Shown here one piece after another: positions 6,093-64,000 of a stretch of 64,000 bases of DNA (the stretch's first letter is position 1; each line of letters opens with the position of its first letter). Source of the DNA: Solobacterium moorei (lineage in GTDB: Bacteria; Bacillota_I; Bacilli_A; Erysipelotrichales; Erysipelotrichaceae); the NCBI RefSeq assembly GCF_036323475.1, contig NZ_AP028934.1, positions 2,294,001 through 2,358,000 of the forward strand, in the 5' to 3' direction. The notes under the pieces were generated by a model. The model was not told the origin of the DNA. It did no database searches and saw nothing but the letters and a program-made list of their open reading frames with translations. The position numbers and the translations under genes were made by a program.

Positions 6093-7727
6093 CCTCAATT
6101 ATTTTTGAAAGTTCCTCTTTTGATTTTATTATTGGTGAAGGTTCCCTTTTTTAATATGATGTCTTTAGAGATGGTGCTGGCAGTTCAAGAAAGGAGGCAA
6201 TCATATGGTTGCCAGCGGTTATAAACATCTATCTTTAGAAGAACGTAAATCTATAGAAGTTCTATTGAATCATTCCGACATCAAACTCAAACAGATAGCA
6301 CTCTCTATCAATCATTCACAGAAATGCGTACGTGAAGAAATCAGAGCACACAGGGTCGTACGTGTCCACTCGAATAAGACGAACAAATGTGGACGGCAAG
6401 ATTCTTGTAAGAAACATCGCTTATGCACATATTGCATAAGCGGTGATTGTAAGTCTTGTAAGCATAAGGACTGCAACGAGCTATGTGATGACTTCGTCTC
6501 ATATCCCGTTTGCGAGAGAATAGAGCGATTCCCTTATGTCTGTTCAGGTTGTCCTGACATACATAAATGTCATCTTCCCAAGTACTTCTACATCGCACGA
6601 ATAGCACAGGATAAATATACGCAAGACAAATTAGAATGGAGGTCCGGACCTCGCAAGAGCGAAGCAGAAATGAAATCTATCGTGGAGGCATTTCAAAATA
6701 ATATTCCTAAAAAGCAATCCATCGATACGATTATCCATACTAACGACCTGAATATATCCGCCTCTACTGCATATAGATACATTCGTGAGCACCAGATTCC
6801 CGGGATTTCAAACATCGACCTAAAACGTCAGGTACGCTACACGCAACGCAGTTCTTCAAGGCATCATCCTATATCGATTGACTACGATTTCCTCGAAGGA
6901 CGCAAATACGAGGACTTCCTAGCAGCCCTAGAAACAGCAGGACCAGATGTAAACGTATGGGAAATGGATACGATCATCGGGAAGAAAGGGAGCGATGAGA
7001 AGTGTGTACTGAGCCTGTTACACAGACGTTCCAATCTTCAATTATATTTTCTCTTACGACACAAGAATATGTTTGAGGTAACGTATCTATTTGATACTAT
7101 CAAAAGTTTCTTAGGCATCGACTTATTCAAAGATACGTTCACTATCATACTCACCGATAATGGCACTGAGTTCCATGATCCACTATCGCTTGAGACAGAC
7201 CCTGAAACGGGAGAAAAACTCATCAGTATCTATTTCGCAAGGCCTAGACGTTCTGATGACAAAGGCAAATGTGAAAAGAACCACGAGCACTTCAGAGAGA
7301 AGATTCCAAAAGGATGCAGTATGAACAGCCTTACAAAATACGACATCAATTTCGTATCAAATCAGGTAAATAATTATGTACGCAGGAAGTTAAATTACCA
7401 ATCACCCTACAGCATTGCCAAACTAGTACTAAACGAAAAGGTGTTAGAACTAAACCGCCTTCATCCCATTTCACCCAAGGCAGTTGATCTAACACCTATC
7501 CTCCATTAGCATCAGACCCTAACAGCACCATCTCTTTATATTCAAAGGGAGCTTTCAAGAGAAATTCAAAAAAATTTCATTTGAAAGTATACTTTTCGTG
7601 CGGTCAAAATGCCCAATATCTATTTAGATTATAGCTTAAAATATATAAATTCAAAACCTGTAAATGGAAAAGCACCCCAATTAAAGGGAGCTTTCGTTAA
7701 AAGGGAGCTTTCACTGAAAATTGAGCA
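6093..7727 (+). mobile_element. IS30-family insertion sequence
   Basis: One transposase gene is flanked by imperfect inverted repeats. The left arm begins near 6093 (CTCAATTA...TGAAAGTTCCTCTTTT). It matches the reverse complement of the right end near 7697-7727 (AAAAGGGAGCTTTC...AATTGAG). Sub-terminal relatives of the same motif occur at about 6136, 7541 and 7679. The outer limits and target-site duplication were not resolved by eye. Confidence 0.65.
6205..7509 (+). CDS. IS30-family transposase
   Basis: A 434-residue DDE transposase. The N-terminal helix-turn-helix (GYKHLSLEERKSIEVLL, then LKQIALSINHSQKCVREEI) is typical of IS30. A cysteine-rich insert follows (about residues 60-125, many CxxC-like pairs), which many long IS30 proteins have. 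The catalytic triad appears intact: Asp255 in EMDTIIGKKG, Asp318 in LTDNGTEF, and Glu357 in the CEKNHEHFRE segment that corresponds to the ExxNG...R motif. AAGGAGG lies upstream of the ATG. The enzyme would cut and join the IS ends; nothing visible suggests inactivation. Confidence 0.93.
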   Translation: MVASGYKHLSLEERKSIEVLLNHSDIKLKQIALSINHSQKCVREEIRAHRVVRVHSNKTNKCGRQDSCKKHRLCTYCISGDCKSCKHKDCNELCDDFVSYPVCERIERFPYVCSGCPDIHKCHLPKYFYIARIAQDKYTQDKLEWRSGPRKSEAEMKSIVEAFQNNIPKKQSIDTIIHTNDLNISASTAYRYIREHQIPGISNIDLKRQVRYTQRSSSRHHPISIDYDFLEGRKYEDFLAALETAGPDVNVWEMDTIIGKKGSDEKCVLSLLHRRSNLQLYFLLRHKNMFEVTYLFDTIKSFLGIDLFKDTFTIILTDNGTEFHDPLSLETDPETGEKLISIYFARPRRSDDKGKCEKNHEHFREKIPKGCSMNSLTKYDINFVSNQVNNYVRRKLNYQSPYSIAKLVLNEKVLELNRLHPISPKAVDLTPILH

Positions 7728-30496: not shown

Positions 30497-30616
30497 ATCA
30501 CTCACCTCATAATAACGATAGTTTATCACGCAACGTCACAAGCAAGTTATTTTTGATTTTTTTCTGTAAAATTGCGAAAAAAACGTAAATTCTAAGATAA
30601 ATGCGAAAAGAGTGGT

Positions 30617-32780: not shown

Positions 32781-33575
32781 ATGATCACAGCAATACTAAA
32801 CATCAAAGGTGGTTGTTCCAAAACACTGTCAGCTGAAATGCTTGCAAGGGGATATGCAAAAGAAGGTAGAAAAACATTAGTAGTAGATGCAGACGGACAA
32901 GGGGATATTACTTCTTCTTTAATGCCACACATCAATTTTGATCAACCTGAAAATGTTGGGGGCGTTACGCCCCCGGAAAAGGGAACCATTGTGGACTATC
33001 TGAAAGGAAACAAAAAGATAGAGGATTGTATCTGGCATACAAAGATCGAAAACATTGACTTGATCCCATCCAGTATGGACTTGTTCACTGTCATCTATGA
33101 AATGCAGGGAAGAGGTGGTGCAGATTTCTTGTTGGGAAATGCATTAAAGGGATTGGACTATGACGAGATCATCATCGACAATAACCCTTCCATCAATAAG
33201 ATGACCTATAACTCCATCTATGCGGCAGATGTAATCATCTGTCCTACAAATATTAGTGAAAAGACATTGAAGGGAGTTATGAATACACGTGGTGTATGCG
33301 TGCAAGCATTAGATGCATTGCCATTTAGCAAGCCTTTAAACTTCAAGATTGTCCTTACAATGATGACACGAAACAATAACTGTAAAGAAGGAGCAAAACA
33401 GTTAAGAGCAGCATTTGGAAAAGATGTATTTGATACACAGATTCGATTCCAACAGAAGCCAGTGCAGGATGCAGAATTTAGTAAGAAGTCCCTATTAGAC
33501 ATGAAAGCTGGTGTAGCTGAAGACTATAGAAATTTGACAAAAGAAGTAATTCAAAAGGATGAGGTGCATGCATGA
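32781..33575 (+). CDS. parA: ParA-like partition ATPase with divergent P-loop
   Basis: A 264-residue ParA/Soj-family protein for segregation or maintenance of the element. The deviant Walker A reads NIKGGCSKT, in which the usual Gly before the catalytic Lys is Ser. The Walker A' region is VVDADGQGDITSSL and Walker B is IIIDNNPSI, both altered from the consensus. The hairpin repeat is inserted in frame near residues 59-66 (ENVGGVTPPEKG). GGAGGG precedes the ATG, and the stop overlaps the parB start (ATGA). Whether it still hydrolyses ATP cannot be told from sequence. Confidence 0.85.
   Translation: MITAILNIKGGCSKTLSAEMLARGYAKEGRKTLVVDADGQGDITSSLMPHINFDQPENVGGVTPPEKGTIVDYLKGNKKIEDCIWHTKIENIDLIPSSMDLFTVIYEMQGRGGADFLLGNALKGLDYDEIIIDNNPSINKMTYNSIYAADVIICPTNISEKTLKGVMNTRGVCVQALDALPFSKPLNFKIVLTMMTRNNNCKEGAKQLRAAFGKDVFDTQIRFQQKPVQDAEFSKKSLLDMKAGVAEDYRNLTKEVIQKDEVHA
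32958..32974 (+). repeat. Hairpin repeat, copy 1, inside parA
   Basis: GGGGGCG-TTA-CGCCCCC, a seven-base stem with a three-base loop, in frame within parA (GGVTPP). The loop differs from the AAA/TTT of the other copies. Confidence 0.9.
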
Positions 33576-34393
33576 CAAATTTAGATTTAGGAAAGATGTT
33601 TGGGGACAGCAATCAGGAGATGCAGAAAGCAGCTGCATTAAAGACATACTTAGTAAAGTTGAATAAAATTCTTCCATCAGAGGAGAATCCATACGAAGTA
33701 GAAGAAGAATCCGTTCAAAGATTGGCTGAGAACATTGAACAATACGGACTGTTCCAGGCACTTACTGCACAGAAAGAAGGCAGTGAGATACGGTTGATCT
33801 CCGGAGAACGCAGATATACGGCATTGAAATATCTTGTGAATCAGGGACTTACATATTCTTACAATGGTGAAGATATAACTGGATATGCTCCAATTTGCTA
33901 CATCAAGCAAACTTCAGGAGATACAAAAACAATGTTTATGATTTCTGCAAATGCTCATAGAGATTTACAGTCAGATGAAAAAAATAGAATCATAGACACA
34001 ACCTTAGTAGCTTTAGAAAAGCAGGAGATGAGTGGAAAGTTCTCCTGGGAAGGCAAACGCAAGGCAACGGTAATCTCTTCGATCACAGGAATTAAAGAAC
34101 ATTATGTAAAAGATTATTTAGCAAGTAAAAATAGAGAAATTAAATTTGCTGAAGAAGATCCGGAAACGCTTGCGAAGATCAGACAATCCAAGCAAGTATC
34201 GGAAGAAGAGAAAGCCTATAAGGAACTGCTCAAACAGATCAATAAATGCATCAAGAAGTTTGAAAAACTGGACAGTTATGTATTAGCAACTTTATCTGAA
34301 GATGAATTAAATACATTTCAAAGCAAATGCTTTGAACTAAGTCTTCATCTACAAGAATGCACAGCAAATGGTGAAAGAGAATTAATGTCATAG
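33572..34393 (+). CDS. parB: ParB-like partition protein
   Basis: A 273-residue ParB/Spo0J-family protein. The N-terminal ParB/sulfiredoxin-like domain contains VQRLAENIEQYGLFQAL and the nucleotide-binding motif RLISGERRYTALKYL, followed by ISANAHRDLQSDEKNRI. A helix-turn-helix-like part follows (around SITGIKEHYVKDYLASK), then a charged, helical dimerisation tail. It would bind a centromere-like site and partner with ParA; no parS-like palindrome was identified nearby. It is translationally coupled to parA. Confidence 0.88.
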   Translation: MTNLDLGKMFGDSNQEMQKAAALKTYLVKLNKILPSEENPYEVEEESVQRLAENIEQYGLFQALTAQKEGSEIRLISGERRYTALKYLVNQGLTYSYNGEDITGYAPICYIKQTSGDTKTMFMISANAHRDLQSDEKNRIIDTTLVALEKQEMSGKFSWEGKRKATVISSITGIKEHYVKDYLASKNREIKFAEEDPETLAKIRQSKQVSEEEKAYKELLKQINKCIKKFEKLDSYVLATLSEDELNTFQSKCFELSLHLQECTANGERELMS

Positions 34394-45331: not shown

Positions 45332-45508
45332 ATGGATAAAGAACTGATCAAAATGATTGAGGATAGTCAAGAGGGCTTTTCTGAAGAAGAAATGCAAGAG
45401 ATGTGCGCAGAAATGAATGGGGAATTTACCGGAAATCAAATTAAAAATAAGATCAATGAAATGAACGACGGTGAAATGATCACCGTTATTTTAAACAGCG
45501 GAGCATAA
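45332..45508 (+). CDS. Small acidic protein of unknown function
   Basis: A 58-residue helical acidic protein (MDKELIKMIEDSQEGFSEEE...) that starts one base after the stop of the preceding gene and uses AGGAAAGGTAGG as its ribosome-binding site. It ends four bases before the RadC-ArdC gene. It was found by reading the gap directly. No family recognised. Confidence 0.6.
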   Translation: MDKELIKMIEDSQEGFSEEEMQEMCAEMNGEFTGNQIKNKINEMNDGEMITVILNSGA

Positions 45509-45512
45509 TAAT

Positions 45513-47270
45513 ATGACGGATACAGGGAAGACATATACATACAACGTTCCAGATAAACATAAACTATATGAACTGAAAGAAATCAAGGTACGTTTAAAAC
45601 CGGAAGATGGTGAAAGTTTACTTAGTAATGAGATAATCGATTCTCCGGATGCTGTGATTGGATTGATGCAAGGATACCTAAACAATCTTGATAGAGAAAA
45701 ACTTGTCGTGGTCAATCTGGATACACAGAATAGACCGTTGTCCTATCATGTTGTATCGATTGGTGATGTAAATAGGTCGCTTGCACCAATACAGAACATG
45801 TATAAAACGGCAATTCTAAATAATGCTACCTCTATCATGCTGTTCCATAATCACCCTTCAGGAAGTCTTGTGCCAAGTAGAACAGATGATATTATTACAG
45901 CTAGAGCTGCATATGTGGGACAAATCATGGGTATCAATATTTTGGATCATGTGATCGTCGCCAATAACGCAAATGATTATTTTTCGTATAGATCACAAAA
46001 AGGTGAAATCCTGGAAACACCACGTATCGTGCTGGATAAGATCGATGTTGCGGGTGTTGCTGAAGAAACAGAAAACTATCATGTCGAAGAAAATATCATG
46101 CATGCAAATGATACGGAAGCAGGTCAGATAAAATCAGATGACACAAAAGATACAAAACCTAAAAAGAGCGTGCAGGATAAAGTCGATGAATACAGAAAAC
46201 TTGTTGCAGATAAGTTCTTGAAACTGTTGGATGCGGATAATCCCGTTCATTCAATGGACTGGATGAAAGAATGGATCTCCATAGATGAACCTGTCAGCAT
46301 GATCACCGGTAATGGGTACAGAGGAATTAACGCATTTATGCTCTCACTGATCGCCATAGATAAAGGATATAAAGACCCACGCTGGATCACATTTCACGGA
46401 TTGAATAAATTTGATGATGCAAGGATAAAAAAGGGAGAAAAGTCATCACAGATCCAGTATTGGATGCTTTCGGATCTTACCAAAAAACACGGTGATAAAA
46501 ATAAATTTATTACCTTTCAAGAAGCGGCAAGATTGATCAAGGAGGAAGGCAGAGAAGAGAAGGATTTTGCGCCGGTCGTAAGATATTCCAATGTATTCAA
46601 TGCGGAGCAGTGTACAGGACTTCCGGAGCTGGTTCAAAAAGAACAAGAACAACAAATTAATCAGAATGAGTACGTGACAAAGATCTCCGAGAAAATGAAA
46701 GTTCCTATTCTGAATGACGGAGGAGCATTTTACAATCGTAAAAGTGATGCGGTACATCTTCCGGAAAAGAAGATGTTTTTCAGTGAGTATGCATACAACG
46801 CCACGGCACTTCATGAATTGGGACACGCAACCGGGGCAGCGCATCGTCTGAACAGGACAAAGGGAAAATCTTTCGGAGATGCAGATTATGCATTTGAGGA
46901 ACTGGTTGCGGAGATGACAAGCTGCTTTACCGCATCAAGGCTTGCAGGTGATGAACAAAGCATTGATAAGTATCTCAAGGAAAATGCAGAAAATCATATG
47001 CGTTATGTCAAAAGTTGGGCAGAGGAAATCAAAAAGAATCCGAAGTGTCTTGAAGACGCTGTGAAACTTGCACAGACTGCTACGGATTTTCTGGATCTGC
47101 ATGGCGGTTATTTGTCATTGAGCGAATATAACCGGCGACAGCAGGATAAACAGGTTGAGTTGTTTAATGATGAATTTATCATGAAGAACGCATTACACAG
47201 TGATACCATTGCAGAACCGGTAAATATTCAAGTGAAATCGGAGGTACAGGGAAGGGGAATAAGCGTATGA
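45513..47270 (+). CDS. RadC-like JAB domain fused to ArdC-like antirestriction protein
   Basis: A 585-residue two-part protein. Residues about 1-165 form a RadC/JAB-MPN metalloprotease-like domain with the motif LFHNHPSGSLVPSRTDD (HxH-x7-S-x2-D). Residues about 220-560 form an ArdC-like protein. Its N-terminal ssDNA-binding domain (YRGINAFMLSLIAI..., WITFHGLNKF) is followed by a zinc-peptidase-like domain with ALHELGHATGAAHRLNR and a downstream Glu in FEELVAEMTSCF. ArdC proteins protect incoming DNA during conjugation. Both putative metal sites look intact. Its stop overlaps the ATG of the lipoprotein gene (ATGA). Confidence 0.85.
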   Translation: MTDTGKTYTYNVPDKHKLYELKEIKVRLKPEDGESLLSNEIIDSPDAVIGLMQGYLNNLDREKLVVVNLDTQNRPLSYHVVSIGDVNRSLAPIQNMYKTAILNNATSIMLFHNHPSGSLVPSRTDDIITARAAYVGQIMGINILDHVIVANNANDYFSYRSQKGEILETPRIVLDKIDVAGVAEETENYHVEENIMHANDTEAGQIKSDDTKDTKPKKSVQDKVDEYRKLVADKFLKLLDADNPVHSMDWMKEWISIDEPVSMITGNGYRGINAFMLSLIAIDKGYKDPRWITFHGLNKFDDARIKKGEKSSQIQYWMLSDLTKKHGDKNKFITFQEAARLIKEEGREEKDFAPVVRYSNVFNAEQCTGLPELVQKEQEQQINQNEYVTKISEKMKVPILNDGGAFYNRKSDAVHLPEKKMFFSEYAYNATALHELGHATGAAHRLNRTKGKSFGDADYAFEELVAEMTSCFTASRLAGDEQSIDKYLKENAENHMRYVKSWAEEIKKNPKCLEDAVKLAQTATDFLDLHGGYLSLSEYNRRQQDKQVELFNDEFIMKNALHSDTIAEPVNIQVKSEVQGRGISV

Positions 47271-48210
47271 AACTAAAGAAGGTATTATTGATTGCACTGA
47301 CAGGTTTTTGCTTGTTGGATGTACCGGTTCAAAGGTCGTGACAGAAGACACTGATCCGGTTGAATCGATTGCCGGTGAACCATTCAGTATCAAGAAAGAC
47401 CGGGTTCTTGTAAATTGGAAGGGCATTAAAGTTACTACCCTTGGATATGATGAAACGGACACTCATGAATGGCATAAAGTCGATTTCAGCAAAGTATATC
47501 AGGGTTTTAAGGTGAAGATTGAAAATAAATCAAAGTATGATATACGGGTAGAACCATCCTCCATATCAATCAATGGATATACAGTGAACGACTTTCTCAA
47601 AGATTCAGCAAGTACATATGTTTCCTCCGGAGAAGAAGGATCTGCTAAAGTTATGGCATTTCTTGAAGAAGAACTGGAAGATATAGGGATCTTAAATGTC
47701 GGAAGAATAGGAGTTGTTTTTAACATTTACAATGCAAAAACATCAGAGCTGCTGCATCGTAGTGAGACGCTGTTTATACGGACGAGCGACTATGAAAAGA
47801 TGGATGCGGAAGCTGCTTTTGAATCACAGGAAGTGTATGATGAATCCAATGTAGCGATCGGGGCAGCTATGGTCACGTATCATACGAGTTTTTTATATAC
47901 GGTGGTTGAAAATAAAACGGATCAGGAGTTGATCGGAGAAGTCAAAAATATCACGCTCATCGATCAGAAAGGAAAAGAAGTTCCTGTTCCGGATGACAGA
48001 TATCAGCTTCTGATCGCTCCTAAATCCAAAGCGATCATATCTCATGTAATCGATTATTCTGACGGTGTCAGGTTTACGGTCGAATTAACCGATAGAGAAA
48101 CCAATGAAAAGATTCTTCCAACGGATGAACTGTTTATGGATCTTCATGTGGATGGAAGTCAAATGTGGCAGGATATTGAAGCCGAAAAGGCTGCACTGTA
48201 TGAGAAGTAA
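47267..48210 (+). pseudogene. Lipoprotein gene with apparent -1 frameshift in the signal peptide
   Basis: The ATG at 47267 overlaps the previous stop (ATGA) and follows GGAAGGGG. It opens a signal peptide (MKLKKVLLIALTGF) that stops soon after, at CGTGA. The rest of the protein is in another frame from about 47308 and begins LLVGCTGSK, a lipobox. Adding one T to the T5 run at 47305-47309 would join them as MKLKKVLLIALTGFLLVGC, a perfect lipoprotein signal. The mature part (about 290 residues) has a FxxxSxTLFIRTSDYE-like region and DUF5067-like beta-sandwich character. Either a sequencing error, a mutation or slippage is involved. Confidence 0.65.
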
Positions 48211-48212
48211 TA

Positions 48213-48241
48213 TTGTTGAAAAGCAGTAAATATGATATTAT
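48213..48241 (+). promoter_or_regulatory. Promoter of the two-copy RNA
   Basis: -35 TTGTTG (48213-48218), 17-base spacer, -10 TATTAT (48236-48241), directly upstream of the repeat RNA. Confidence 0.65.
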
Positions 48242-48247
48242 TTCTAT

Positions 48248-48566
48248 GTCAAATATGGCGACGGTGTTAGATATACATAACACTGAATTTGTGTCCGAAC
48301 GTCCGAAGACATACAGCCGGTTGCTTTAGCACTTTCTAAATTTCTTATATATCCGGAACTTATCTAAAGTAAAGGCAAACAAAAACTATAGGCGATGTTT
48401 CATTCAATTTGTGTCCGAACGTCCGAAGACATACAGCTGGTTACCATCAAAATACTGATTACCGGATAAATCAGACGATGGCAAACGCAAACAAAAACTA
48501 TAGGCGATCTATTCATTATATTTGACGAAGGAGAAACCGATTGGAATTTATCTGATCGGTTTTTTT
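48248..48566 (+). ncRNA. Two-copy structured RNA, candidate antitoxin RNA
   Basis: Two units of about 120 bases. Each begins with a conserved block (48286-48321 and 48406-48441; contains TTTGTGTCCGAACGTCCGAA and GACATACAGC). A variable loop region follows, and each unit ends with GCAAACAAAAACTATAGGCG (48375 and 48487). In each unit GTT after the first block can pair with AAAC before the second. The adjoining helix differs in sequence but not in pairing: TTTA/TAAA in unit 1, CCATC/GATGG in unit 2. A promoter precedes it and a terminator follows, then the toxin-like gene. The layout matches type III antitoxin RNAs (repeats, terminator, toxin). The transcript start is estimated from the promoter. 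Confidence 0.6.
48534..48566 (+). terminator. Terminator between the repeat RNA and the toxin-like gene
   Basis: Stem AAACCGAT (48534-48541) with ATCGGTTT (48555-48562), 13-base loop, then a run of seven T. In type III toxin-antitoxin loci a leaky terminator at this place keeps antitoxin RNA in excess over toxin mRNA. Confidence 0.9.
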
Positions 48567-48586
48567 CATGTCTGAAAGGAACATAT

Positions 48587-49444
48587 ATGAGTTTTAAATT
48601 TTATACGATCTCAACTAAATTGAGGGACAGCATCGACAGGAGTCTGGATCGTGGTTTGCATAAAAAAAAGATACGACCATATTTTCTGGGTTTGAAATAT
48701 GACGGTTATCATGTACTGTTGCCGCTTAGGAGTAATTGTCCCAAAAGATATAGTGTCGCAATCGATCATCCCGATCCAACAAAGGAGAACCATGGGATCG
48801 ATTGTACGACGATGCTGCTGTTGCGTAACAGAGAACTAAATACAATGGCAAAGGAAATACAATTACATCCTTATGAAGTGGCAGAAAATGTAAAAAATAA
48901 ATATTCCCGGATACACGCAATGGCGATGTATACGATTTCACAATATAAAGCCATTCAGGAAGAGAAAGAAAAAGGTATCCAACTAACAAAAGATGATGCC
49001 TGGCTTGATCATCGCTGCACGCTGAAGAATTATCATGCGGAACTTGGAATAAAGCCATATATTCAGGCAGAAGAAAGCAGGCAGCAGGATTTGGAGAAAG
49101 CGAAAAGATTGATCAAAAGGTATCGTAAAACCCAGAAACATCAGACTGATTTTTCAGATATGAAACATGTGCTGATTAATAAGTTCAGTACCCGGGACGG
49201 AGGAAATTATTCCGTAGAAGCAAACCTGGAAAAAGCAAAGATCACATATTACCAGGATGCAGCAGTAATTAAAGAATATCAATTTCATAATTTGCAGGGG
49301 ATGAACAATAAATTTTTAGCAAATTTGGATCGCAATAAGATGGCTGCCACTTGCTTGCGTTTTTCCAAGTCACAGGTGGTGACAGTACATGTTGAAATTG
49401 GTAATCCAATTCAAAACGTACAATCCAAAGGTAGGAAACTGTAG
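48587..49444 (+). CDS. ToxN/AbiQ-like toxin (type III TA endoribonuclease) with long C-terminal extension
   Basis: A 285-residue protein. The N-terminal part has the ToxN/AbiQ family signature: FKFYTIS at residues 3-9, then RPYFLGLKYDGYHVLLPLRS (residues 30-49) and CPK. In ToxN the corresponding loop (PLTSPK-like) carries catalytic Thr/Ser/Lys; Ser49 and Lys53 match here. A helical part (GIDCTTMLLL, AMAMYTISQYKAIQ) follows, as in the family. ToxN is about 170 residues, so the last ~120 (from about 165, including KHVLINKFSTRDGGNYSVEA) are an extra domain I do not recognise. The gene follows a two-copy structured RNA and a terminator. GAAAGGA precedes the ATG. Family assignment is from memory of the pattern and not a search. 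Confidence 0.65.
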   Translation: MSFKFYTISTKLRDSIDRSLDRGLHKKKIRPYFLGLKYDGYHVLLPLRSNCPKRYSVAIDHPDPTKENHGIDCTTMLLLRNRELNTMAKEIQLHPYEVAENVKNKYSRIHAMAMYTISQYKAIQEEKEKGIQLTKDDAWLDHRCTLKNYHAELGIKPYIQAEESRQQDLEKAKRLIKRYRKTQKHQTDFSDMKHVLINKFSTRDGGNYSVEANLEKAKITYYQDAAVIKEYQFHNLQGMNNKFLANLDRNKMAATCLRFSKSQVVTVHVEIGNPIQNVQSKGRKL

Positions 49445-58558: not shown

Positions 58559-58981
58559 ATGAAACACTACTACAGATTTATTCTCAACTACGATGAAGAT
58601 GAAACACGGATCTTCATCAGTCCAAAAGAATTAAAGAAAGATGACGTTGCTGTTGTTCATTCTTATGGCAAACAATTTGCAATCGGTACGGTTTTAGAGC
58701 CGGTGAGTGAACTGGAAGCGTTAACCGGTCATCAACGCAAATGTATTGAAGATGTTATCTGCTTGGTCGATGTTACCAATTATCTCAAAAAGCAACAGGC
58801 ATTATCAGAGCGTTCTAAACTTGAAGAATTGATGGACGAAAAAATGGCAGAGTTGAAGTATGAAGACCAACTCAAAAAGACTGCTGATAGAAGCGCAGAT
58901 TTCAAAGTTCTCTATGAAGCATATCTCAAAACATTATCACCGGTCACAGATGATGTGAACGAAATTCTGGACGAAGAATAA
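58559..58981 (+). CDS. Small protein of unknown function
   Basis: A 140-residue protein. The N-terminal half (YYRFILNYDEDETRIFISPKE...GKQFAIGTVLEPVSEL) is beta-rich, like a small SH3-like or transcript-associated fold; the C-terminal half is helical. I know similar small proteins in phages and conjugative elements without function. RBS GATAAGGAA is weak. It lies between two non-coding regions. Confidence 0.6.
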   Translation: MKHYYRFILNYDEDETRIFISPKELKKDDVAVVHSYGKQFAIGTVLEPVSELEALTGHQRKCIEDVICLVDVTNYLKKQQALSERSKLEELMDEKMAELKYEDQLKKTADRSADFKVLYEAYLKTLSPVTDDVNEILDEE

Positions 58982-59052
58982 ATGCGTGAGTGAGTGAGTG
59001 GGAAGAAAAAATCTTTCCACTCATCTCAACACTGATGAAAGGAAAAGGCAAT

Positions 59053-59145
59053 ATGAATTATTTGGAAATTATTAGCAATTACAAAGTGCTACCGAAAATT
59101 TTTGATGGACTTTCCTGCATGTACAATGGAAAAATCAAATCATGA
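59053..59145 (+). CDS. Possible 30-residue leader peptide
   Basis: MNYLEIISNYKVLPKIFDGL, then ten more residues to a TGA. AAAGGAAAAGGCAAT precedes the ATG, so it may be translated, perhaps as a leader. Below the usual length for a confident gene. Confidence 0.3.
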   Translation: MNYLEIISNYKVLPKIFDGLSCMYNGKIKS

Positions 59146-59345
59146 ATTTCAAAAATTTTGAAACGAAAAACACGCAAAGTCGTATTGAAAAAATTCAAGA
59201 CAGCAAAAAATTTTAATCGAAGAAATCGAAAATTCTAAATCGGAAAATCGGAAAAATGAAATCGGATTTTTCTAAAATCGAAAATGGAAGTTTGCGGAAA
59301 GTTTGAAATTTTCTCAAAATATCTTAGAGAAACAGGGTAAGGAAG
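59146..59345. other. AT-rich repeats with AAATCGGAAAA motifs
   Basis: No gene. Dense short repeats related to AAATCGGAAAA and its complement (around 59230-59290) lie next to the iteron array. Confidence 0.5.
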
Positions 59346-59506
59346 TGTGTGTCCACAAAATTGTGTCCACAACTTCACTTTGGATAAATGGGCAATGCCC
59401 ATTTTCACGCTTTATAAGCGGCTTTTTTGATGTGTACACATTGTGTCACAGTGTGGACATACATACCGATTTTTTGTGTCCACATGTTGTCCACGTTGTG
59501 TCCACA
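59346..59506 (+). repeat. Iteron-like array of TGTGTCCACA
   Basis: Exact TGTGTCCACA copies are at 59348, 59362, 59475 and 59497. Variants are TGTGTACACA (59431), TGTGTCACA (59442), TGTGGACA (59452, inverted) and TTGTCCACG (about 59487). The element resembles a DnaA box (TTATCCACA) and the array stands just before the ribbon-helix-helix and relaxase genes. Candidate oriT or replication origin, or an operator for the gene at 59608. Confidence 0.6.
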
Positions 59507-59607
59507 AAATGAATGACAAAAAATGATGTTTAAAAATTCGTTTTTTTGTTTTTTCGGTAAATCTTTTTCGGTGTTTTTTAAGCAGAAGGGAGCAATATAG
59601 TAAGAAT

Positions 59608-60066
59608 ATGGCAAATGGAAAAGAGATACACTTCAGAGCAGAAGATGAGTATATATCCATGCTTGATTTTCTGGTAACACAGGAAGAAACAGATGCAATT
59701 ACCGCAAACAGAATTGCATTAAATAAGACGCAGATCATCAAACAGGCGATCAAAGATTACTACATTAAGCGCACAGACAAGAAAACTTCCAATGCATTTT
59801 CCGAATCAATTCAAATTACTTTGGAGAGTGTATTAGAAGATTACTTTAATAAAAATAATGCAATGATCACAGGCAAGTTAAAACTGTTGCAGGACTTTGT
59901 TAAAGAAATAAACATAAAAGAATTGCTCATGTTAAAAGTTTTAATGTACAGTGCAAGTGCAGAAAAACATTTAGATAGTGTGCAAACTGCAGTTGATAAC
60001 AATATGAAGTTTGAAGAGATCATTACAGAAAAAGTAAAACAGATTATGGGAGGAAATGAAAAATGA
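59608..60066 (+). CDS. Ribbon-helix-helix relaxosome accessory protein
   Basis: A 152-residue protein. Its N-terminal MANGKEIHFRAEDEYISMLD and NKTQIIKQAIKDYYIKRTDKK fit a ribbon-helix-helix (beta strand then two helices) as in relaxosome accessory factors; the rest is helical. It would bind the origin-of-transfer repeats upstream and help the relaxase. AGAAGGGAG precedes the start region. It overlaps the next gene (ATGA). Confidence 0.7.
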   Translation: MANGKEIHFRAEDEYISMLDFLVTQEETDAITANRIALNKTQIIKQAIKDYYIKRTDKKTSNAFSESIQITLESVLEDYFNKNNAMITGKLKLLQDFVKEINIKELLMLKVLMYSASAEKHLDSVQTAVDNNMKFEEIITEKVKQIMGGNEK

Positions 60067-60386
60067 ATTTACAACAACTGAATAGCAAGTTAGAAAAAAT
60101 GGAAGCTGTCTTAAAGGCAAATGAAGAACAGATTGCAGTCTTGAATGAACAAAACGGAATCCTGAAATCAAACATTTCTGAAGTGAAGAAACTGCAAAAG
60201 AAATATGAAAGTATCGAAGCAGATTTGGAAAAGAAGATTGAAAGTTTGAATCTGATGGATCTTGATCTGAAACCAAAACGCAGAACGAAGCCAAAGAAAA
60301 AAGTGCAGGCAGATGTTACAGAAAATGCAGTAGAAGAAAAAAAGACAGATGATGAAGCAGACATCAGCAAATACTTTAATCACTAA
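60063..60386 (+). CDS. Coiled-coil mobilisation protein
   Basis: A 107-residue protein with a coiled coil (about residues 5-62, MNLQQLNSKLEKMEAVLKAN) and a strongly basic segment (PKRRTKPKKKV) before an acidic tail. It is encoded between the ribbon-helix-helix protein and the relaxase, coupled to the former, and probably assists the relaxosome. It resembles MobC-type accessory proteins in position only. Confidence 0.65.
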   Translation: MNLQQLNSKLEKMEAVLKANEEQIAVLNEQNGILKSNISEVKKLQKKYESIEADLEKKIESLNLMDLDLKPKRRTKPKKKVQADVTENAVEEKKTDDEADISKYFNH

Positions 60387-60400
60387 GGAAGAGATGTAAA

Positions 60401-62032
60401 ATGGGACATGCAGATGTAATCGTTGATGTGGCATTTCTGCAATATGGTAAACACGCACCAAGCAATTCCGGGTTCAAAGGAATCGTCACAACAGAATCCG
60501 TATTTGGCGGATTTGTAAATTATCTGGTACGTGACAAAGCCATCAGCAATTCAATGGATGATGAATTAGTACGAGGTAAAGGAGAGCAAGCAGAAAAAAC
60601 TGTAAGCTCTCTTTTACATTCCGAACATGGACTGGATGGTTCACTGATGGATTATACAAGCAGAGAAAATGCAACGAAAAATTCAAATGATAAAGCATAC
60701 TTTACGATGACAAACGAAGGAAAGATTTATTCACAAGAACAACGTGAAGAGTGGATCAGAAATTCAATGAAGTCATTTTCCAAGGATGGCGATCTTATTT
60801 GGACACTTGTCGTTTCATTGGATAATTATGATTTGTTAAATGAATATGAGCTAAAGACGCAGGAGGATTTTGCAAGTACGACGCAAAAAGCGCTGAACAA
60901 AACATTTAAGAAGATTGGACTTGATCCGAAGAACATGATCTGGTGGGAAGATTTTCACACCAATACGGATCACCCGCATATGCATATTACGTTCCTTGAA
61001 AAAGAACATACAAGAGATCGAGGAAAGTTTACTGAGAAAGAAATCGATAAAGTTAAAACTACAATCATCACAGAAATTGCGGCAAGAAAAAGATATAAGG
61101 AACTGTATCTGCAGGAATCAGAAGATGCACTTAAAATGATCAATCCACTTAAAAAAGAAGTCATCAGTCAAATGGAAACTCTTTCTTATAAGACGTTAAA
61201 GGATGTATCCAATCTCTATTCACAACTGCCAAGAAGCGGACGCTTACAGTACAACTCCGCCAACATGGCACCATATAAAAACCAACTGGATAACATCGTG
61301 GAACAGATTTTGAAGAGTGATGAACTGAAAGGGACGTATGAACAGTTTGCGGATCATCTGAAAAAGTTTGATAACAATATGAATGCGATCGGCAACGAAA
61401 AAATATCTCATATGATGGAAAGAGAAGATACAAAACTGCGTGTGATGATCGCTAATGAGATACTCAAAGGATTCAAAGAAATCAAACAGGATCCGACTGA
61501 AAAAGCAAATAAAGTGCATACCTGGAAGATGGATCACGGTACGCAGCTTTTGTGGAATGCATTAGAGCAGATAAAAACAGATGATCTCTTGCCGGAACAA
61601 AAAATTGTGGTTCAGGAACTAAAGGAGCAAAACTTTGTGGCGGCACAAATGGCGATTAAGAATCTTGGCAGCTCTGCTGTGGATCAATATCTGAAGGGAA
61701 GCGTGATTGTGATTGCTTCTAAAGAAGATGCAGAAAAAGAAAGAGGTATCGAATATCTACATTCTGCATCTGAGCAGGGAAACAAACAGGCAAAGAAGTT
61801 TATGAACTTTTTTAACAGAAGTGTCAGTTTTACAAAAAATGAGTTCCATGGATACAAACAAAGATTTGGAATGCGGTTGCCAAAGTTTTTTAAACGCATG
61901 TTGAACAATCGAAAGAGAGAAGTTGAGGAAGAAATTGATGAGTATCTGAAGCAGAATCAAAAGAAGATATATGAAAAAGAGTCTGGAGAATATCCTAGTT
62001 ATAAAGTGAAAAGAGGTGAACAGAAGATATGA
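60401..62032 (+). CDS. MobL-family relaxase
   Basis: A 543-residue relaxase that nicks the origin of transfer and pilots the strand. The N-terminal half holds the MobL pattern: DLIWTLVVSLDNYDLL, then the histidine triad HTNTDHPHMHITFLEK (about residues 186-200). The C-terminal third is helical and includes Sel1-like repeats (GIEYLHSASEQGNKQAKKF). A nick-site Tyr could not be assigned. RBS AAGGAAGAGATG is close to the ATG. Its stop overlaps the coupling protein start (ATGA). Confidence 0.85.
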   Translation: MGHADVIVDVAFLQYGKHAPSNSGFKGIVTTESVFGGFVNYLVRDKAISNSMDDELVRGKGEQAEKTVSSLLHSEHGLDGSLMDYTSRENATKNSNDKAYFTMTNEGKIYSQEQREEWIRNSMKSFSKDGDLIWTLVVSLDNYDLLNEYELKTQEDFASTTQKALNKTFKKIGLDPKNMIWWEDFHTNTDHPHMHITFLEKEHTRDRGKFTEKEIDKVKTTIITEIAARKRYKELYLQESEDALKMINPLKKEVISQMETLSYKTLKDVSNLYSQLPRSGRLQYNSANMAPYKNQLDNIVEQILKSDELKGTYEQFADHLKKFDNNMNAIGNEKISHMMEREDTKLRVMIANEILKGFKEIKQDPTEKANKVHTWKMDHGTQLLWNALEQIKTDDLLPEQKIVVQELKEQNFVAAQMAIKNLGSSAVDQYLKGSVIVIASKEDAEKERGIEYLHSASEQGNKQAKKFMNFFNRSVSFTKNEFHGYKQRFGMRLPKFFKRMLNNRKREVEEEIDEYLKQNQKKIYEKESGEYPSYKVKRGEQKI

Positions 62033-64000
62033 TTGTTTTGAAGAAAATATTGAAGTCGATCATTTGGGGGATTGCCTATGTGATTGTTGCATACTTTCTT
62101 GCTATGCAGATAGCATGGCTTTTATCTTACAGAGATGATCTGATGGGATTTATTGATGCGATCAATGTGCGGCATGTCTGTCTGGATCCGGCAATCATGT
62201 TCTGGCAGGGGAATGCAGAATACTTCCGCCTGGTAACATATCTGATTCTGGCCGGACTGCTGTACTTTTTGACCATGTCATTGCGGCCGTCTAAGACAGA
62301 AAGAGAAATGCGTGCGATGAAGCGGCGATTGACGCATGAAGAAATGGATTCATATACACATATTGCAAGCAGGCACGAGGCTAAAAAAGGATTGCAGCGC
62401 TTCCGCTTCGATGCGGATGGAAGACAGGATCATAAGTTTGTTTCCGCCAAAAAGTATTATAAAGATGTCCGGTGGTGGTTTGGCAATGCGGCATTTTTGA
62501 TTCAGTTTGTATCAGCAGTGGTCATTGTTATGATCACAATAAAAAATCTGATCAACCGGATAGGTCAATATATTCCGTCAAACATGCTGCGGATTCAATT
62601 AACACTGCCGGCAGTTTTGGATCATATGTTCTTTTATATTGTGATCTTTTTGGGACTGCTAATCCTGGAGATTCTGATCAGCTCTAATGTATGGGAAAAA
62701 TCAGCCCGGAAGCTGTTCAAGGATAAATTAACGATGATCAAAGATACGATTCGGCAGCGAAGAGAGCTGAAGCAGCTGATCAAAAGCGGACATATTCAAC
62801 AGATCGAGGCGAATATGGGAAATTGGAGAACAGATCTGCTGTTGAGATGGAATGCGGTATATGTACTGCTCAGACCGCATATCAAAGATTATGCTGATTT
62901 TGTATTCAACCCGCAGAAACACTTGTGGAATAAACTGGTACAGCGTTTGAAGCTCTCCGATAAATGGAAAGTAAATGAATACAGATGGTTTAATATCAAT
63001 GGGGAAGATACGAATCGAAGATGCGGCTTGCCGATGGAAACATCAAGATCATGTACTTACGTGGATCCGGATGATAATCACAGTCTGGTCATTGGTACAA
63101 CGAACTCCGGTAAGACAACTACGGTAGTGCATGGCTTTATTGAAGGTGTGCGCATTGGCAGATCAAACATGTTTGTCAATGATATTAAAAAGAATCTGTT
63201 ACAGGCGCATTACGGACGCTTGAAGGCGGACGGGTACAATGTTATTGTTCTGGATTTTGTGGATCCGGCGAAATCTGAATGCTGGAATCCTTTTGGAATC
63301 GTATATGCAAAATACCGGGAAGCACAGCAAGCAGCGGATCAGTGCTGGAAAAATGAAAATGAACGGGGAAATTACCTAGAGATAAAGAAACAATACCTCT
63401 TGCTGCAGGCAAAGATGCTGCAAGTAAATAAAGAATTTGCCAAAGACCTAGATTCGGAAGACAAAGATCAGCAGCAAAAAGCCAAGGCGGCGATCGATCC
63501 GGTCGAAAAACGATATAACCAGCTGAAGAAACAAAAGATGATGATCGAAGAATCACCGAACTTTCCAAGACCGGATCTTTCTGATGCCAATGAACAGTTG
63601 ACGGATATTTGCCGGACACTGTGTGAAGAAAAAACATCAAAAGCACACTTCTGGCAACAGGCACAGCGGCTCATGGAAGGATGTGTGTCTTTTCTTTTGG
63701 AGTATGAGTATGTTGATGATGACGGGAACATTTGCCAGTTGGATGAAGATCAGATCAACTTCCCGAATATCAATGCACTTGCAAGCGAGGGTTTTTCTAC
63801 CGTTGATACACCATCCGGAAGGATGTTCCTGTTAATGTGGTATCTGCAAAATCTCCGTAATGTGACAGATCGATCTTATGAAAGACTGATCACGATATGT
63901 TATACGGGTGCAGACGAAAGAGGATCCATTCTGTCTACGTTCTCCAATAAAATGCAGATAGGTATGATCAATGAACGTGTCAGAAAGATGACCTCAAAGA
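62029..64000 (+). CDS. VirD4/TraG-type coupling protein (5' part)
   Basis: The frame is open to the window end (657 codons), so this is the first part of a type IV coupling protein. Two membrane segments near the N-terminus (about residues 6-30 and 60-85) are followed by two more before residue 220. The Walker A motif GTTNSGKTT is at about residue 356. The following NDIKKNLLQAHYGRL and VIVLDFVDPAKSECWNPFG are typical of the family. AGAGGTGA precedes the ATG. It links the relaxase-DNA complex to the VirB4/VirB6 channel. GC-richer codon use than the genes before it. Confidence 0.92.
   Translation, partial: MIVLKKILKSIIWGIAYVIVAYFLAMQIAWLLSYRDDLMGFIDAINVRHVCLDPAIMFWQGNAEYFRLVTYLILAGLLYFLTMSLRPSKTEREMRAMKRRLTHEEMDSYTHIASRHEAKKGLQRFRFDADGRQDHKFVSAKKYYKDVRWWFGNAAFLIQFVSAVVIVMITIKNLINRIGQYIPSNMLRIQLTLPAVLDHMFFYIVIFLGLLILEILISSNVWEKSARKLFKDKLTMIKDTIRQRRELKQLIKSGHIQQIEANMGNWRTDLLLRWNAVYVLLRPHIKDYADFVFNPQKHLWNKLVQRLKLSDKWKVNEYRWFNINGEDTNRRCGLPMETSRSCTYVDPDDNHSLVIGTTNSGKTTTVVHGFIEGVRIGRSNMFVNDIKKNLLQAHYGRLKADGYNVIVLDFVDPAKSECWNPFGIVYAKYREAQQAADQCWKNENERGNYLEIKKQYLLLQAKMLQVNKEFAKDLDSEDKDQQQKAKAAIDPVEKRYNQLKKQKMMIEESPNFPRPDLSDANEQLTDICRTLCEEKTSKAHFWQQAQRLMEGCVSFLLEYEYVDDDGNICQLDEDQINFPNINALASEGFSTVDTPSGRMFLLMWYLQNLRNVTDRSYERLITICYTGADERGSILSTFSNKMQIGMINERVRKMTSK

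Follow-up and report, generated by a model that had tools for sequence, protein, structure and literature searches.

A repeat array upstream of a MobL relaxase gene in Solobacterium moorei is probably the repeat part of an origin of transfer

The 64,000-nucleotide stretch of the Solobacterium moorei chromosome analysed here (the window) contains an array of short repeats that is very probably the repeat part of an origin of transfer (oriT, ~59330–59510) of a conjugative element that resides in the chromosome and encodes a MobL relaxase. This reading of the sequence builds on four kinds of observation: conservation, covariation, recurrence and linkage. The array sits in a 626-nt gap (58982–59607) between a 140-aa ORF and an accessory gene. 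The features are as follows.

58559–58981: 140-aa ORF preceding the oriT
59333–59342, minus strand: predicted nick core, 5'-CCTTACCCTG followed by T, with the predicted nick between 59333 and 59332
59342–59376: IR1, GAAGT...ACTTC around two iterons, adjoining the core; its position matches that of IR1 in relatives
59386–59404: IR2 hairpin, AAATGGGC-AAT-GCCCATTT, 8 bp with a 3-nt loop, marked by covariation
59408–59420, plus strand: terminator-like small hairpin CGCTT-TAT-AAGCG with a T run behind it; possible IR3
59431–59506: distal iteron array, in the order TGTGTACACA, TGTGTCACA, TATGTCCACA (minus strand), TGTGTCCACA, TTGTCCACG, TGTGTCCACA
59431–59440: variant iteron TGTGTACACA
59442–59450: variant iteron TGTGTCACA, read by eye
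59452–59461, minus strand: variant iteron TATGTCCACA
59487–59495: variant iteron TTGTCCACG, read by eye
59608–60066, plus strand: accessory protein, 152 aa, probable ribbon-helix-helix (RHH) protein in the Aux/SmpO position, found at the same place in relatives
60063–60386, plus strand: 107-aa coiled-coil-like ORF, with ORFs at the same place in related loci L045, L047 and L048
60401–62032, plus strand: MobL relaxase, 543 aa (PF18555, 83.4 bits against a cut-off of 28.5)
62029–64000, plus strand: VirD4-type coupling protein (PF02534, above cut-off), running off the window

Exact copies of TGTGTCCACA start at positions 59348, 59362, 59475 and 59497 of the window. The first two are spaced by 14 nt and the last two by 22 nt, with a variant midway that divides this interval into ~11+11. 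The four exact and about four variant copies, partly spaced by 11 or 14 bases and partly inverted, that the first-pass annotation had described were thus all seen, and the 161-nt stretch that holds them is strongly enriched: shuffles preserving dinucleotides contained a mean of 0.016 exact copies, and none of 2000 contained four. When up to two mismatches were allowed, TGTGTCCACA occurred 41 times in the whole 64-kb window against 53 expected, which is no excess, and the array signal is therefore local. The genome contains 13 exact copies, of which four are at the array, four are in a second copy of the element that carries the array with identical spacing, and five are single. The repetition of AAATCGAAAAT in the adjoining AT-rich stretch, also reported earlier, was confirmed as exactly two copies (59223 and 59275). 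An A-tract phasing score for static bending, a rough measure from a crude model, was not above shuffles.

The array had been placed directly before an RHH gene and a relaxase. The accessory gene does come next, 102–260 bp from the array, but the 107-aa ORF separates it from the relaxase gene. The accessory protein is likely, if weakly so, an RHH protein judging from its relatives: Pfam RHH_1 matched 5/14 of these weakly (best E 0.0023) and was absent from the window's own protein. For the accessory protein a profile search gave no meaningful PDB match, Aux1/Aux2 gave no match either, and a single-sequence AlphaFold model (pLDDT 38) had no usable fold. The assignment of the relaxase is firmer, with the catalytic tyrosine and histidine triad of RelLS20, the MobL relaxase of pLS20 (Y26 and H150/H157/H159), conserved in the window protein, which misses the NCBIfam cut-offs for MobP3 (118.7 vs 150) and MobP2 (95.6 vs 200). 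VirB4-like, NlpC/P60 and class-B-sortase-like proteins are encoded at 53.5–58 kb. The 140-aa ORF on the other side of the gap has a copy of 89% identity in locus L046. The relaxase of that locus is just 35% identical, and this points to module exchange.

Just to the left of the array, on the minus strand, lies the sequence CTTACCCTG followed by T. The start of 59346 that the first-pass annotation gave the array missed the conserved core at 59330–59342; its suggestion that the array might be the oriT is supported in that core, hairpin and repeat layout are shared by related relaxase loci, with the nick core lying outside the region it delimited. The core keeps its position and form at 35 distinct matches and at the weaker match G165. 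On the nicked strand these 36 cores read ATCCTG (22), ATCTTG (6), ACCCTG (4, the window among them), ATGCTC (2), ATCCCG (1) and ATGCCC (1). MOBP relaxases have the nick consensus (C/T)ATCCTG(C/T) (PMC3772185), to which the window core, one base off ATCCTG, has one mismatch. In chromosomal MobL loci the core is mostly TTATCCTG, which equals this consensus. Because the cores match the published MOBP consensus, the minus strand is predicted to be nicked between 59333 and 59332. A core of the TTATCCTG type was not described for MobL relaxases among the matches listed in a search of open-licence PMC literature, which is no proof of absence.

The inverted repeats beside the core differ in how strongly they stand out. 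In the window itself the inverted repeat of IR1 is weak, scoring 5 where the best of 60 shuffles scored 7; across the matched places IR1 exceeds all 60 shuffles in 28/36. IR2 forms 8/8 pairs in the window, and among nine sequences including the window both sides have changed in 5/8 pairs, giving 17 double-changed cells against 5.0 in shuffles, with pairing kept in 97.2% of cells despite sequence change. A third hairpin at the IR3 place was found in 21/36 relatives against 12.5 expected, only modestly above shuffles. An Rfam search gave no match.

Of 272 genomes searched within the family, 26 contained a relative of the relaxase at E 1e-20. A related-locus search found no relatives, and searched phage records gave no match. 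Loci that share this gene order, including two in this chromosome, have the series CAGGRTAAGG, IR1, GGACAA or similar, IR2 and more repeats upstream of the accessory gene, with copies of the IR1 word continuing as far as that gene. The array, which had been proposed for a search in related elements, accordingly has counterparts at the same place, but the repeat word changes from element to element. A covariance model was built from nine sequences, the window included, and matched at 36 places spread over 26 of these 272 genomes, the nine seeds being among these matches by construction; 22 of the 26 genomes also appear in the relaxase list. One of the 36 is the element's second copy, identical to the first, which leaves 35 distinct places; at 28 of these a MobL relaxase follows downstream on the strand of the match. 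Plain pattern scans for the core plus GGACAA gave only chance matches: in 0/183 did the available sequence show a MobL relaxase within the following 6 kb (at least 119 stretches from genome contigs and 64 from viral contigs).

The other 7/35 places have no same-strand relaxase within the sequence examined. In G022 the relaxase lies within 0.4 kb of the oriT match on the opposite strand; in G075 a relaxase fragment lies 14.6 kb onward, at the contig end; the G059 match is itself at a contig end; and G109 has the accessory gene, with the relaxase absent from the stretches examined. Three oriT matches stand without a relaxase in the stretches examined: G018 (L277, 4645–4709), G061 (L279, 894–969) and G111a (in L281 of G111, within 6415–6769), the last with a relaxase ~10 kb away on the contig that has its own oriT. 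Such relaxase-less oriTs are candidate passengers that would use a helper's relaxase. By eye, the neighbours of the G018 oriT include a tyrosine integrase-like ORF and a RepA-type ATPase-like ORF. In L281 two oriT matches lie ~0.2 kb from each other, one on each strand, and the oriTs of L278 (G059) and L279 are identical letter for letter over the model length in differing surroundings. In a survey of 392 genomes of the phylum, 10 contained a match, five of them outside the family. Within the stretches examined, an accessory-like ORF adjoins the oriT in 4/5 of the latter and a relaxase is present in 2/5; in these matches the oriT runs opposite to the genes, and G439 has neither an accessory-like ORF nor a relaxase. 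G022, G165 and the same-order matches also have the oriT in this inverted orientation, its inner layout kept.

The iterons make up just one part of the oriT, the element-specific one. The IR1 word is TGTGTCCACA in the window element, TTGTACAAC and a CGTATTACG-type word in two further elements on this chromosome, and GTGAGTAC and TGTCCGACA in the two nearest relatives. Each element's IR1 words cover 30.5 bases of its own distal 200 nt, whereas other elements' words cover 9.5 (27 groups; 0/20000 permutations). Across 34 elements, 29.8 bases are covered in the 200 nt beyond IR2, compared with 9.4 on the upstream side of the core and 5.5 within coding sequence, and in the window's distal array the element's own IR1 words cover 51 bases (0/300 shuffles). 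The recurrence is absent in G083, G149 and G022. Since own words recur far above foreign ones, the array is best understood as an element-specific address and not as a site for a host factor. With relaxase identity controlled for, more similar accessory proteins did not go with more similar iterons (partial r 0.02; 1861/5000 permutations as high), in a test that used overall identity of the accessory protein, perhaps the wrong measure.

From these observations we infer binding, nicking, transfer and the assignment of proteins to parts. Dimers of the accessory, probably RHH, protein would bind the near-palindromic TGTGTCCACA in IR1 and in the distal array and would bring the relaxase (encoded from 60401) to the adjacent core. 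The relaxase would then nick the minus strand, which is the template strand of the transfer genes, after CTTACCCTG. The IR2 hairpin, in its single-stranded form, may help nicking, and the coupling protein would pass the strand to the type IV secretion system (T4SS) encoded at 51–58 kb. Core and IR2 would constitute the shared part of such an oriT, and the iterons its element-specific address.

Other roles can be imagined for repeats in this position. Many such accessory proteins autoregulate, and the array precedes the accessory gene closely enough that the protein might bind it solely to repress its own operon, the array having no part in transfer. This is quite unlikely: the conserved core, IR2 and the core-adjacent IR1 would be superfluous for an operator, a scan of the plus strand found no promoter-like site, and the inversion of the oriT with its inner layout intact, described above, also argues against it. 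An operator role for the accessory gene may exist alongside the oriT. Partition loci, too, typically combine RHH proteins with iterated operators, so the repeats could be a centromere read by an RHH centromere-binding protein; we regard this as the least credible of the readings, because the neighbours are a relaxase and a coupling protein and no ParA-like gene adjoins the array, the ParA- and ParB-like ORFs seen by eye lying 26 kb off (32781–34393).

A vegetative replication origin, which the first-pass annotation had also entertained, would account for an iteron array next to an AT-rich stretch and for a repeat word close to the DnaA box, TTWTNCACA. Even the looser TTNTNCACA has no match in 58982–59607, however, and a scan of nine adjoining proteins recognised no replication initiator. 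The repeat word differs wholly even among three elements of one chromosome, and DnaA, like any host factor, is therefore an unlikely reader. A DnaA-read origin thus finds little room here, and a vegetative origin in general is very improbable.

The oriT reading has close precedents: certain plasmids are known to have this layout, and their core is a different one. In pWBG749, pMG2200, pMC189, pHTbeta and pGL5, the sequence CTTATGCTCTT lies beside IR1–IR3, and the pWBG749-type nick is placed in CCTTATGCTCTTACGG (O'Brien 2015, PMC4652767). According to the same source, smpO sets oriT specificity, with repeat IR2 its likely target; SmpO binding was shown at ossB, within the core-proximal repeat, and ~50 bp away at ossA (Yui Eto 2021, PMC8136818). 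As in the pWBG749 family described there, whose hairpins are branched, the core ends the hairpin set, an element-specific repeat adjoins the core and a second copy of the word lies further off; IR1 here corresponds to IR2 of pWBG749. The RHH gene smpO lies between the oriT and a MobL-like relaxase gene in that family, in the place held here by the probable-RHH accessory gene. The published family members are staphylococcal plasmids, whereas the present elements are chromosomal, have a longer repeat array and carry the oriT inverted relative to the genes. Plasmid pWBG637, assigned to the pWBG749 type by its layout, has the same arrangement and a relaxase annotated as MobP2. The traits of the pWBG749/pHTbeta type (MOB-MG) that are present in the window are the hairpins beside the core and the element-specific repeat with a distant copy. 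The MOB-MG core CTTATGCTCTT is not in the window; CTTACCCTGTT stands in its place, equal at 8/11 positions, and the window oriT is therefore best taken as a variant that would work like a MOB-MG oriT and not as a member. By this comparison it probably works like a pWBG749-type oriT with a different core. A further resemblance is to the MOBP/IncP nick region (PMC3772185), where the likeness is that 22/36 cores here hold ATCCTG with an inverted repeat beside it, and the differences are that the window core is ACCCTG and that its relaxase is a MobL protein below the cut-off of the Pfam Relaxase model.

Plasmids with MobL relaxases were compared over 12 stretches, 11 picked from 80 listed matches plus pLS20. 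In all 12 the gap that precedes the accessory genes contains a core; it reads TTATCCTG in the L. brevis stretch and TTATGCTC in the other 11. The covariance model does not match MobL plasmids of Bacilli, and the link to plasmids rests on layout and core. In pLS20 an intergenic oriT with three TGTGCAT repeats precedes the Aux genes and the relaxase gene (PMC5313138, PMC5675868), similar to the window. Its oriT gap (L244, 9740–9800) also holds CCCCTTATGCTCTTT beside two hairpins; unlike the window, pLS20 has no ATCCTG core and no worthwhile covariance-model match. The pLS20 nick was mapped after GAATCGGGGGCCGG on the template strand (PMC5313138), 42 nt from the TTATGCTC core and on the opposite strand. 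This published position was measured, and the disagreement is a discrepancy and not a correction. By eye, the GC-rich hairpin at the mapped nick is kept in a close B. velezensis relative and was not seen in the Priestia or Exiguobacterium stretches.

It is possible, though we would not yet call it probable, that all MobL elements, from Bacilli plasmids to chromosomal ones, share one oriT plan: a TTATSCTS core (in TTATGCTC or TTATCCTG form), one hairpin and a private iteron address. If so, the pLS20 nick in vivo would be at CTTATGCTCTT on the coding strand and not at the mapped site, and the lone oriTs of G018, G061 and G111 would be hitch-hikers on a helper's relaxase, limited by iteron match. 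The 2017 MOBL paper, in its passages on clade 2, left the nature of that clade open for lack of functional information, with the oriT of just a single member mapped (PMC5313138). Core and hairpin now offer a computational means of finding chromosomal MobL oriTs and of seeking passengers that lack a relaxase, the iteron word may allow prediction of who mobilises whom, and the shared core makes one published nick position directly testable again.

The element occurs twice in the chromosome, at window positions 30578–64000 and at ~1.53–1.56 Mb of G000:C1, with 99.9–100% identity where compared and the left end of identity near 30578. A 3.8-kb stretch (45417–49258) is missing from the second copy, with a 14–15-nt overlap at the junction, and contains an ORF (45513–47270) that is RadC/ArdC-type-like by eye.
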